From positions 17,152,975 through 17,216,974 of the forward strand of contig NC_091175.1 in the NCBI RefSeq assembly GCF_040958095.1: a stretch of 64,000 bases of DNA, read 5' to 3'. Each line of letters starts with the position of its first letter. The first letter of the stretch is position 1. The notes below the pieces were generated by a model. That model was not told the origin of the DNA. It made no database searches and saw nothing but the letters and a program-made list of their open reading frames with translations. The position numbers and the translations under genes were made by a program. Positions 28,206 through 32,224 of this stretch are shown here, in pieces. This DNA comes from Procambarus clarkii. Lineage: Eukaryota; Arthropoda; Malacostraca; Decapoda; Cambaridae.

Positions 28206-28402
28206 TAAAGAAGAAAGATCCGGTGTCTCTATTCCTTCCCTCCTCTTCCGGAAGGCACCAATAGTTTGACATTTGGCTCACTCGATACTCATTTTCTCAG
28301 TCACTTTGTCAAGTTCATTCGAATTCAAAGAAACGCTATAAAAATAAACGACGCGAAACATGCATGAAAATTACACACACACACAGTGTATGTGTGTGTG
28401 TG

Positions 28403-28574
28403 TATTCACCTAGTTGTTCTCACCTAGATGTGCTAGCGGGGGTTGAGCTCTGGCTCTTTGGTCTCGGCTCTCAACTATCAATCAACTGGTGTACAGATTC
28501 TGGAGCCTATTGAGGTCTATCAAATCTACATTTGAAACTGTGTATGTAGTCTGCCTCCACCACATCACTGCCTT
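28403..28574 (-). mobile_element. LINE 3' end fragment, minus strand
   Basis: On the minus strand it matches the last ~170 bases of copies A and B (TTTCAAATGTAGAT, CAACCCCCGCTAGCACA) and ends in a GTGAATAC block next to GT repeats (28391-28402). The truncated 5' edge abuts an AC tract (28575-28610). It stands head to head with copy C across that AC tract. Confidence 0.88.
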
Positions 28575-28610
28575 ACACACACACACACACACACACACTC
28601 ACACACACAC
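28575..28610. repeat. (AC)n between two oppositely oriented LINE pieces
   Basis: AC dinucleotides with one TC interruption. Confidence 0.95.
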
Positions 28611-30640
28611 AAAAAAAGGGAAAAAATAAGAAGGAATATAATAACCCATGGTTTAATAGACAGTGTCAGGAAGCAAAAATGGCCAGCAGGCGGGAGTGGA
28701 GGAAGTACAGAAGACAAAGAACAGAGGACAACAGAAGCAGATACAACAGAGCTAGGAACGATTACATTAACATAAGACGAACATCGGAAAGGGACTATGA
28801 GAACGATATTGCGATCAAAGCGAAAAAACAACCTAAGTTACTACACAGTCATATAAGAAGAAAAATGTCGGTGAACGACCAAGTGACAAGACTAAGGAAG
28901 ACAGAGGGGGCATATACTGAAAGTGACAAGGAAATCTGCGAGGCACTGAATGCCAGTTTCCATGGAGTGTTCACTACCGAGCCTGAGCAGCTCCCATTGT
29001 TGGAAGGGGTTACCCTAGATGAAAGACTATCAGATATAGAGGTGACAGCAGAGGAGGTAATGAAACAGTTGACAACTCTAGATGCAACTAAAGCAGTTGG
29101 ACCAGACAAAGTATCACCGTGGATACTAAAAGAAGCAGCACAGGCCCTCAGCGTGCCTCTGGAAATGATCTTTAATGAGTCACTTATGTCAGGAGAATTG
29201 CCCAGTTGCTGGAAGAAGGCAAATGTCGTGCCGATCTTCAAGAAAGGAGATAGGGAGGAGGCACTTAACTACAGACCTGTATCACTGACAAGCATCCCCT
29301 GTAAAATACTGGAAAGAATAATTAGGCTACGACTGGTTGCACACCTGGAGAACATTAGGTTTGTGAACAAACATCAACATGGGTTCTGGACAGGGAAATC
29401 GTGCCTAACAAACCTTCTGGAATTCTATGATAAAATAACGAGGATAAGACAGGACAGAGATGGTTGGGCAGACTGCATATTTCTGGACTGCCAAAAAGCC
29501 TTTGATACAGTACCGCACATGAGACTGCTGTTCAAGCTCGAGAGGCAGGCGGGGGTGGGGGGAAAGGTCCTAGAATGGATAAGGAACTACCTAACAGGAA
29601 GGAGCCAAAGAGTTACGGTAAGGGGCGAGAAGTCGGACTGGCGAACAGTAACAAGTGGAGTACCACAAGGATCGGTGCTGGGACCAATTCTATTTCTTGT
29701 ATATGTTAACGACATGTTTACAGGCGTAGAGTCCTACATGTCGATGTTTGCGGATGATGCAAAGTTGATGAGAAGAGTTGTGACAGATGAGGATTGCAGG
29801 ATCCTCCAAGAGGACCTGAACAGATTGCAGAGATGGTCAGAGAAATGACTACTAGAATTCAACACGAGCAAATGTAAAGTTATGGAAATGGGACTAGGAG
29901 ATAGGAGACCAAAGGGACAGTACACAATGAAGGGGAACAGCCTACCTGTAACGACGCGTGAAAGAGACCTGGGGGTGGACGTAACACCTAATCTATCTCC
30001 TGAGGCACATATTAATAGGATAACGACAGCAGCGTACTCTACACTGGCAAAAGTTAGAACATCATTCAGAAACCTAAGTAAGGAGGCATTTAGGGCGCTT
30101 TACACTGCCTACGTAAGGCCAGTCTTAGAGTATGCCGCCTCATCATGGAGTCCCCATCTGAAGAAGCATATAATGAAACTGGAAAAGGTTCAGAGGTTTG
30201 CAACGAGACTCGTCCCAGAGCTACGAGGGATGGGGTATGAAGAGCGCCTGAGGGAACTGTGCCTTACGACACTAGAAAGAAGAAGGGAGAGGGGGGACAT
30301 GATAGGAACGTATAAGATACTCAGAGGAATTGACAGAGTGGACATAGACGAAATGTTCACACGGAATAGTAACAGAACGAGAGGACATGGATGGAAGCTT
30401 GAAACTCAGATGAGTCACAGAGATGTTAGGAAGTTTTCTTTTAGCGTGAGAGTAGTGGGGAAATGGAATGCACTTCAGGAACAGGTTGTGGAAGCAAATA
30501 CTATTCATAATTTTAAAACCAGGTATGATAGGGAAATGGGACAGGAGTCATTGCTGTAAACAACCGATGCTCGAAAGGCGGGATCCAAGAGTCAATGCTC
30601 GATCCTGCAAGCACATATAGGTGAGTACATATAGGTGAGT
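28611..30640 (+). mobile_element. CR1/L2-like LINE, 5'-truncated, nearly intact (copy C)
   Basis: Starts in the endonuclease-reverse transcriptase linker and ends in two tandem ATATAGGTGAGTAC units before (AC)n. Belongs to a subfamily (MGQESLL C-terminus) distinct from copies A, B and E (YDRAQ C-terminus). Confidence 0.92.
28640..30559 (+). pseudogene. LINE reverse transcriptase ORF, one nonsense codon
   Basis: The frame runs from NPWFNRQC in the linker to MGQESLL. The single interruption seen is a TGA at 29846-29848, where the sister copy D has a Trp codon. Before the stop are the RT blocks NYRPVSLT, HQHGFWTGKSCLTNL, FLDCQKAFDTVPHMRL, SGVPQGSVLGP and the catalytic FADD. After it the same frame continues through VRPVLEYAASSWSPH and TRLVPELRGM to the end. 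The endonuclease domain is missing through 5' truncation. The first ATG (28679) is internal to the ancestral protein and need not be a real start. Confidence 0.9.
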
Positions 30641-30707
30641 ACACACACACACACACACACACACACACACACACACACACACACACACACACACACACAC
30701 ACACACA
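30641..30707. repeat. (AC)n between LINE copies C and D
   Basis: Uninterrupted AC tract that is the 3' tail of copy C and touches the truncated 5' edge of copy D. Confidence 0.95.
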
Positions 30708-31985
30708 TCACTGACAAGCATCCCCTGCAAAATACTTGAAAGAATAATTAGGCTAAGACTTGTTGAGCACCTGGAGAGCATTGGGTTTGTAAACAAGCAC
30801 CAACATGGGTTCTGGACAGGGAAATCATGCCTAACAAACCTTTTAGAATTCTATGATAAAGTAACAAGGATAAGGCAGGACAGAGAAGGCTGGGCAGACT
30901 GCATATTTCTTGACTGCCAAAAGGCCTTTGATACGGTACCGCACATGAGACTGCTATACAAACTTGAGAGGCAGGCAGGAGTAAGCGGAAAGGCCCTAGT
31001 ATGGGTGAAGAACTACCTAACAGGAAGGAGCCAGAGGGTAATGGTAAGGGGCGAAAAGTCGGACTGGCGAACAGTAACAAGTGGAGTACCTCAAGGATCG
31101 GTGCTGGGACCAATCCTCTTTCTAATTTACGTAAATGATATGTTTACAGGAGTGGAATCATACATGTCAATGTTTGCAGATGACGCAAAATTAATGAGAA
31201 GAGTTGTGACAGACGAGGATTGTAGGATCCTCCAAGAGGACTTACACAGGCTGCAGAGATGGTCAGAGAAATGGCTACTGGAGTTTAACACCAGTAAATG
31301 TAAAGTTATGGAAATGGGATCAGGTGACAGGAGACCAAAGGGACAGTACACAATGAAGGGGAACAGCCTACCTGTAACGATTCGAGAAAGAGACCTGGGA
31401 GTGGATGTGACACCTAATCTAACTCCTGAGGCACATATAAATAGGATAACGACAGCAGCGTACTCTACACTGGCGAAAATTAGAACTTCATTCAGAAACC
31501 TAAATGAGGAAGCTTTTAGGGCGCTTTACACTGCCTACGTGAGACCCGTCTTAGAGTATGCCGCGCCATCATGGAGCCCCCACCTGAAGAAACACATAAA
31601 GAAACTGGAGAAGGTTCAGAGGTTTGCGACGAGGCTTGTCCCAGAGCTACGAGGGATGGGATATGAAGAGCGGCTGAAGGAACTGAACCTTACGACACTA
31701 GAGAAAAGAAGGGAGAGAGGAGATATGATAGGGACATATAAAATACTCAGGGGAATTGACAAAGTGGAAATAGATCAAATGTTCACACGTAATAATAACA
31801 GAACGAGGGGACATGGGTGGAAACTGGAAACTCAGATGAGTCACAGAGATGTTAGGAAGTTTTCTTTTAGCGTGAGAGTAGTAGAAAAATGGAATGCACT
31901 TGGGGAACAGGTTGTGGAAGCAAATACTATTCATACTTTTAAAACTAGGTATGATAGGGAAATGGGACAGGAGTCATTGCTGTAA
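30708..31985 (+). CDS. LINE reverse transcriptase fragment, open throughout
   Basis: 426 codons run without a stop from SLTSIPCK to MGQESLL. The first ATG is at 30945. It holds FLDCQKAFDTVPHMRL, SGVPQGSVLGP, the FADDAK catalytic block and the C-terminal domain. It lacks the endonuclease and the first RT blocks, so it cannot act alone. The lack of lesions and close similarity to copy C suggest a young insertion. Unlikely to be expressed as it has no promoter of its own. Confidence 0.85.
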   Translation, partial: SLTSIPCKILERIIRLRLVEHLESIGFVNKHQHGFWTGKSCLTNLLEFYDKVTRIRQDREGWADCIFLDCQKAFDTVPHMRLLYKLERQAGVSGKALVWVKNYLTGRSQRVMVRGEKSDWRTVTSGVPQGSVLGPILFLIYVNDMFTGVESYMSMFADDAKLMRRVVTDEDCRILQEDLHRLQRWSEKWLLEFNTSKCKVMEMGSGDRRPKGQYTMKGNSLPVTIRERDLGVDVTPNLTPEAHINRITTAAYSTLAKIRTSFRNLNEEAFRALYTAYVRPVLEYAAPSWSPHLKKHIKKLEKVQRFATRLVPELRGMGYEERLKELNLTTLEKRRERGDMIGTYKILRGIDKVEIDQMFTRNNNRTRGHGWKLETQMSHRDVRKFSFSVRVVEKWNALGEQVVEANTIHTFKTRYDREMGQESLL

Positions 31986-32070
31986 ACAACCGATAGCTAG
32001 AAAGGCGGGATCCAAGAGTCAATGCTCGATCCTGCAAGCACATATAGGTGAGTACATATAGGTGAGTACA
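30708..32070 (+). mobile_element. CR1/L2-like LINE, 5'-truncated (copy D)
   Basis: Same subfamily and orientation as copy C, truncated at the SLTSIPCK block of the reverse transcriptase. Its 3' end has the same doubled ATATAGGTGAGTAC motif and then (AC)n. Confidence 0.92.
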
Positions 32071-32224
32071 CACACACTCACACACACACACACACACACA
32101 CACACACACACACACTCACACACACACACACACACACACACACACACACACACACACACACACACACACACACACACACACACACACACACACACACTCA
32201 CACACACACACACACACACACACA
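32069..32224. repeat. (AC)n microsatellite, LINE 3' tail
   Basis: About 75 AC dinucleotides with ACTC interruptions. Confidence 0.95.

Follow-up and report, generated by a model that had tools for sequence, protein, structure and literature searches.

LINE copies and AC tracts in the window

We examined a 64,000-nucleotide stretch of the Procambarus clarkii genome (contig NC_091175.1, positions 17,152,975 to 17,216,974 of the forward strand), hereafter the window, whose coordinates are used unless a locus is named, for a family of long interspersed nuclear elements (LINEs) whose copies lie against AC tracts. The sequence and the tracts were reread, and the LINE pieces were called by similarity. 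Nine refined pieces match those named earlier in a sequence-only reading, which had seen seven of them as bounded at both ends by AC/GT repeats and had proposed that the repeat is the insertion target. In 6 of the 9, AC on the sense strand of the element stands at the 5′ joint (joints at 7936, 14910, 16324, 28615, 30708 and 44944); for these the description held, while it failed in its sense orientation for the piece at 28415-28573, which shows GT there.

The first copy (7936-9956, plus strand, type C) is 5′-truncated, with (AC)6 on its 5′ target side (7918-7929) and an AC tract on its 3′ side (9957-10078). On the minus strand, two 5′-truncated copies at 14083-14910 and 14927-16324 have a single sense AC tract in common (14911-14926); the former has a further sense AC tract on its 3′ side (14071-14082), and the latter, a type A copy whose 3′ end was the query of our similarity search, has one at its 5′ joint (16325-16340), with other sequence further out. 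Two 5′-truncated type B copies follow on the plus strand. The one at 28615-30640 has (AC)n at its 5′ joint (28575-28611) and terminates in two 14-bp tail units, and (AC)33 at 30641-30706 separates it from the one at 30708-32067, which is 90% identical to its neighbour, has another truncation point and is followed by an AC tract (32068-32223). A LINE 3′ end of only 97 bp (44848-44944, minus strand) has sense AC tracts on both its 5′ side (44947-45014) and its 3′ side (44676-44847).

The remaining pieces are less regular. The short 3′-end fragment at 28415-28573 (minus strand), whose tail reaches to about 28404, has an AC and then a GT tract at its 3′ end (28373-28403); the (AC)n at 28575-28611 belongs, as 5′ flank, to the plus-strand neighbour at 28615-30640. 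As had been read from the letters, AC is found at one end only, the 3′ end, of the LINE 3′ end at 61108-61371 (minus strand; tract at 61024-61107), and at neither end of the short LINE-tail-like piece at 51957-52033 (plus strand). A tenth, weak internal piece at 38759-38936, absent from the earlier reading, is also without AC. Three long AC/GT tracts of the window (38153-38234, 52932-53059 and 56642-56725) have no such element within 120 bp on either side.

The LINE family

Copies were assigned to types A, B and C, and the type B copy at 28611-30640 shows about 68% DNA identity to the window's A and C copies. The 3′ end of the LINE has a 14-bp unit such as AAATAGGTGAGTAC, present once or twice and followed by AC, with no poly(A). 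Genome-wide counts were made in the 4.03-Gb assembly, where a 27-base word close to the LINE 3′ end has 63,191 occurrences over both strands; thus, the family is very large.

Endonuclease and reverse transcriptase are coded by pieces of long LINE copies (loci fetched from the genome carry the prefix L). The reverse transcriptase is of the type found in LINEs without long terminal repeats (Pfam RVT_1, 3.7e-35, L003:3730-5016), with matches in PDB to R2 and LINE-1 ORF2p, and the endonuclease is of the apurinic/apyrimidinic (APE) type (Pfam Exo_endo_phos_2, 1.6e-7, 31.6 bits with a cut-off of 27.4). The B copy in L003 is interrupted by stops and spread over several frames. We take the motifs of the LINE to resemble those of CR1/L2, and the putative CR1/L2 label rests on this resemblance together with the two Pfam matches.

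Several LINE copies, among them L016, L023, L025 and L128, have nearly the same truncation point (AAGGCTGCGGG), some 390 bp before the 3′ end; reverse transcription may frequently halt there. L143 and L145, located on C23 and C129, are paralogous; one has two 14-bp tail units and the other has one. Pieces of other LINE families, with 23-42% amino-acid identity to the AC-landing LINE, were seen at 39139-40444 of the window (minus strand) and in L040, L042, L046 and L048.

LINE 5′ joints across the genome

Close copies were collected by similarity to the 377-bp 3′ terminus of the 14927-16324 copy. The best 30 of 40 scored copies, from 2720 candidates, were kept, and exclusion of the window's own copy (L009, in 2 pieces) left 29. 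A joint was called AC when at least 4 AC units lay on the sense strand no more than 30 bp upstream of the 5′ end. From the joint table, 41 of 109 pieces were excluded (21 at a locus edge, 10 that were SINE tails, 8 at the reference end and 2 beside N; SINE, short interspersed nuclear element).

Among the close copies, 22 of the 29 5′ joints were readable, and AC was found in 19, GT in none and neither in 3. By eye the AC count is 20, because L020 had been split in piece calling and its upstream piece begins at an AC run. As for the other two joints, L016 is an insertion within a minisatellite, with its cut at CAC; L013 adjoins the 3′ end of another copy. As a background, 97,000 usable positions were drawn at random from these element-rich loci; the 30 bp upstream held AC at 2180 of them (2.2%) and GT at 2202; therefore, the AC joints do not arise by chance. 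The enrichment predicted by the sequence-only reading was thus found (19/22 against 2.2%), and the outcome it had named as fatal, that most copies lack AC on their 5′ side, does not describe the readable close copies.

The 40 AC-flanked LINE pieces have 40 distinct truncation distances, ranging from 85 to 2588 bp, which bears out the earlier remark that the pieces are truncated at differing points of the element. These differing points also rule out the tandem duplication of one multimer that had been named as another source of the AC, while assembly error is not favoured since several of the 5′ AC tracts are merely 10-20 bp long. In a second batch of 20 loci, of which 11 extend past the fetched stretch, 9 5′ joints were readable, by script and in some cases by eye, and AC was present in 7 of them; in this batch L143 and L145 are paralogous copies of a single insertion. 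When a single LINE truncation point was searched genome-wide on the reverse strand, (AC)5 joints numbered 44 and (GT)5 joints 2. Reverse-strand counts are given, as on the forward strand a given site is counted more than once, in different registers.

A SINE with the LINE tail and its tail-swapped control

About 74 bp of 3′ tail is common to the LINE and to a SINE whose RNA polymerase III (tRNA) head was read by ARAGORN as tRNA-Thr (L022:1907-1977). The exact count of this head in the genome is 15,376, and it is joined to at least two different tails. We refer to the SINE with the LINE tail as tail-1. The tail-2 SINE has this head and the same core, joined to a very different 3′ tail, as in the window copy at 35791-36027 (plus strand), whose joints are without AC, and it served as a head-matched control for the effect of the tail. 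Both sets comprised best-scoring copies, 40 being scored of 1003 candidates for tail-1 and of 1243 for tail-2, with 39 fetched copies each.

The 5′ joint was AC in 31 of 39 tail-1 copies and GT in none, and AC stood at the 3′ end in 30 of 39. By contrast, none of 37 tail-2 copies had AC at the 5′ joint, with AC at the 3′ end in one copy, and the two unparsed tail-2 loci (L125 and L126, mutually identical) showed no AC by eye. The difference between 31/39 and 0/37 is highly significant (Fisher's exact test, p = 3.3e-14). Therefore, the 3′ tail goes with the target, and so presumably does the enzyme that reads the tail; with one SINE head on two tails, the contribution of the 3′ tail can be told apart from that of the rest of the element. 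The tail-1 SINE lands in the target of the LINE presumably because it is moved by the enzymes of the LINE. Among the 7842 exact SINE heads on the reverse strand, whatever their tail, (AC)5 was found no more than 8 bp upstream in 1904 and (GT)5 in 40.

At several SINE 5′ joints (e.g. L092, L095, L100 and L112) a short inverted segment of the tRNA head is present, for instance TACGAGG preceding GGGGCCTCGTAGCC; the end of the complementary DNA (cDNA) may have folded back and been copied. A small tandem array of heads was also seen at G000:C1:23687495-23687706, where a 23-base SINE head word is repeated at least 8 times with a 27-base period.

Empty sites and origin of the AC

Empty target sites were recognised as insertions of a repeat in a repeat in L016, L064 and L076, all within one genome and none as an orthologous allele. 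In L016 and L076 the minisatellite register is restored once the insert is skipped, and L057 is a further insertion in a minisatellite. In L064 one SINE is the host of another, which lies antisense in the host's internal GT tract and is flanked by host parts 41-223 and 393-508; in L055, an intact relative, the tract runs through the site without a break. LINE 3′ ends were likewise found within internal GT tracts of SINEs in L010, L014 and L017.

Five targets were not AC tracts (L016, L058, L065, L072 and L080), and in all five the tail is without long AC. L016 ends in GTAC followed directly by TTGG, the other four have just a few AC letters at the tail, and in L080 the direct repeat CACAAGGG stands on each side of the insert. 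The lengths of the 5′ and 3′ AC of the SINEs are correlated (rho 0.40, p = 0.012, 38 copies; L061, with no tail found, was left out). On balance, most of the AC flanking the copies on either side is best taken as the target, and the tail may have grown to some extent; the target is a less firm source for the 3′ AC.

The tail of an older element lies next to 21 of 40 AC-flanked LINE copies and 11 of 32 AC-flanked SINE copies, as well as next to some copies of the 'other' class. Up to half of the landings are thus within AC of older copies, which explains the clusters in the window.

Target preference and alternative explanations

These results support the earlier proposal of insertion into pre-existing AC repeats, in the form of a strong preference: the AC is enriched, strand-specific, independent of the truncation point and linked to the 3′ tail. 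We consider it probable, at roughly 0.85, that existing (AC)n, with AC as the sense strand, is the preferred insertion target of a LINE family encoding an APE-type endonuclease and a reverse transcriptase, and that the SINEs sharing its tail land there too. AC landing is a preference, since the elements also land at short CACA words and in minisatellites containing CA, and only about half of the less selected pieces have AC.

Several observations weigh against this reading or narrow it. The close copies are the top-scoring ones, so young copies are favoured in that sample. The less selected pieces in the fetched loci had AC at 21 of 46 joints, GT at 2, both at 1 and neither at 22, and their AC share was unrelated to the alignment score (5/11, 5/13 and 11/22). 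Ten random 5-kb stretches (45,576 bases without N) contained four family pieces (L041, L042, L044 and L045, the first beside N), and none of the 3 readable 5′ joints there had AC. AC was absent from the 3′ joints of 6 of 29 close copies and 10 of 48 others. The frequency of a 3′ AC of at least 12 bp was not significantly different between SINEs with 5′ AC (24/32) and those without (2/6; Fisher p = 0.066), and a long 3′ AC stands without 5′ AC in L059 and L077. The GT joint of 28415-28573 and the adjacency to older tails belong here as well.

The last of these points would fit an account in which the elements make their own AC tail and later copies insert in such tails only, ordinary AC microsatellites being no target. 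The element tails directly upstream of the AC in the 21 LINE and 11 SINE copies are what this account expects, and so are L059 and L077. However, the tail signature is missing in 18 of 40 LINE and 20 of 32 SINE copies (a few of them still element-derived, e.g. L008, L021, L060 and L064), insertions are found in minisatellites (L016, L057, L076) and in the internal GT tract of a SINE (L064), and the tails of the five copies at non-AC targets are without long AC, which together make landing in self-made tails alone improbable. The same five copies are hard to reconcile with an origin of the two flanking AC tracts in slippage or untemplated addition, whether in the course of reverse transcription or once the copy had inserted. 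Such an origin could draw on the tail unit itself, repeated once or twice in LINEs and at least 5 times in the SINE L078, as from slippage, and again on the two copies with 3′ AC only. But no two of the 40 AC-flanked copies share a truncation point, so that there is no common AC seed at the 5′ end, and the lengths of the two AC tracts are correlated; we regard this origin as very unlikely.

Preferential survival was also considered, whereby insertion would be untargeted and copies in harmless AC repeats would mainly be retained. AC tracts are probably harmless landing places, and AC is rarer at the joints of the less selected pieces, as such retention would have it. Yet the tail-2 SINE, with the same head in the same genome, lies outside AC (0/37), and a strand bias of 1904 AC to 40 GT is not expected of selection on location, which leaves survival bias with hardly any probability.

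Proposed mechanism

For insertion into existing AC, we infer the following course, including the strand nicked first, the pairing of tail and primer and the share of endonuclease and pairing in the choice of target. The endonuclease would nick an AC tract, or a short CACA word, on its GT strand, and the GT-ending 3′ end of the target strand would then pair, as primer, with the AC-ending RNA tail (ending in GTGAGTAC or GTAAACAC). Reverse transcription would proceed towards the RNA 5′ end, frequently stopping early, and the new cDNA end would join the AC remaining on the other side. The AC of each copy could then be the landing ground for later copies, and these would pile up. The short CACA targets are consistent with pairing. 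AC tracts may be preferred through the endonuclease, through the large number of equivalent registers in which a tract can pair, or through both, and the present data fit each of these.

Perhaps this CR1-group LINE reads its AC target mainly by pairing of the AC of the RNA tail with the GT primer, such that a swap of the SINE tail suffices to shift landing between AC repeats and ordinary DNA, and the family enlarges the very habitat in which it lands; we put this forward tentatively, at a little under even odds. Tail-swapped SINEs make tail pairing and endonuclease preference testable against each other.

Comparison with known systems

Target choice is understood for few LINEs, and the present system is a natural test of how such elements choose their landing sites. 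Waldo, of the R1 clade, targets ACAY repeats; by this description it resembles the present LINE in having an APE-type endonuclease and an AC-rich simple repeat as target, and differs in repeat unit and, probably, in clade. Kibi and Koshi, of the Tx1 clade, target TC and TTC repeats and are, by the same kind of description, also microsatellite-targeting LINEs with an APE endonuclease, at other repeats and probably in another clade.

As far as the consulted part of a study of target-specific LINEs goes, most such families belong to early-branched lineages, Tx1 and R1, and among these an APE-type endonuclease is found only in Tx1 and R1 (PMC4640811). Togen elements, NeSL-related LINEs of fish, are described there as (TG)n-specific and thus target the same dinucleotide microsatellite as the present LINE, but target-specific LINEs outside Tx1 and R1 have a restriction-like endonuclease, whereas that of the present LINE is APE-type (PMC4640811).

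The Bov-B system, in the sections consulted, is similar in that a LINE and a SINE share their 3′ end and terminal repeats are linked to the cut site; however, Bov-B copies are rarely flanked by targets resembling their 3′ repeat, whereas the present close copies usually are (PMC13295347). According to the parts consulted, RTE elements of Lepidoptera seed microsatellites (PMC2887409) and transposable elements of penaeid shrimp are carriers of simple sequence repeats (PMC7878876). Retroelements adjoin microsatellites there as they do here, but those elements are held to bring the repeat, whereas here the repeat is mainly a pre-existing target (PMC2887409, PMC7878876). CR1 elements are reported in a crayfish and a shrimp, with AC targets not mentioned in the portions consulted (PMC7859515, PMC3124438).

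Judged on titles and the openings of abstracts, no CR1-group LINE with an AC-repeat target was recognised among the open-access papers listed. Microsatellite-landing LINEs are already known; what is new here is therefore an AC-targeting variant with a clean tail-swap control. A LINE that lands in AC may help to explain the clustered AC tracts of the present genome, and it calls for caution with microsatellite markers.

Other observations in the window and the genome

The same series of tandem repeats was found at 16754-17280 and 22089-22615 of the window, 5335 bp apart, which suggests a local duplication. Large minisatellites lie at 10434-11452, 22915-23991, 24887-26599, 34782-35386, 36395-37293 and 49467-49869, and the 21-bp units of 36395-37293 and 49467-49869 look alike. 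Elsewhere in the genome, clusters of hemocyanin-like genes were seen on the G000 contigs C16, C52, C78 and C89. One hemocyanin-like match scores 378.8 and 370.1 bits with PDB entries 6l8s and 1hc1, and at most 191.4 bits with the entries that come next; 1hc1 is from a spiny lobster and those next entries are chelicerate, which suggests a malacostracan crustacean. The hemocyanin middle-domain family gave 31 matches, with the whole domain present without a stop in 23 of the 31.

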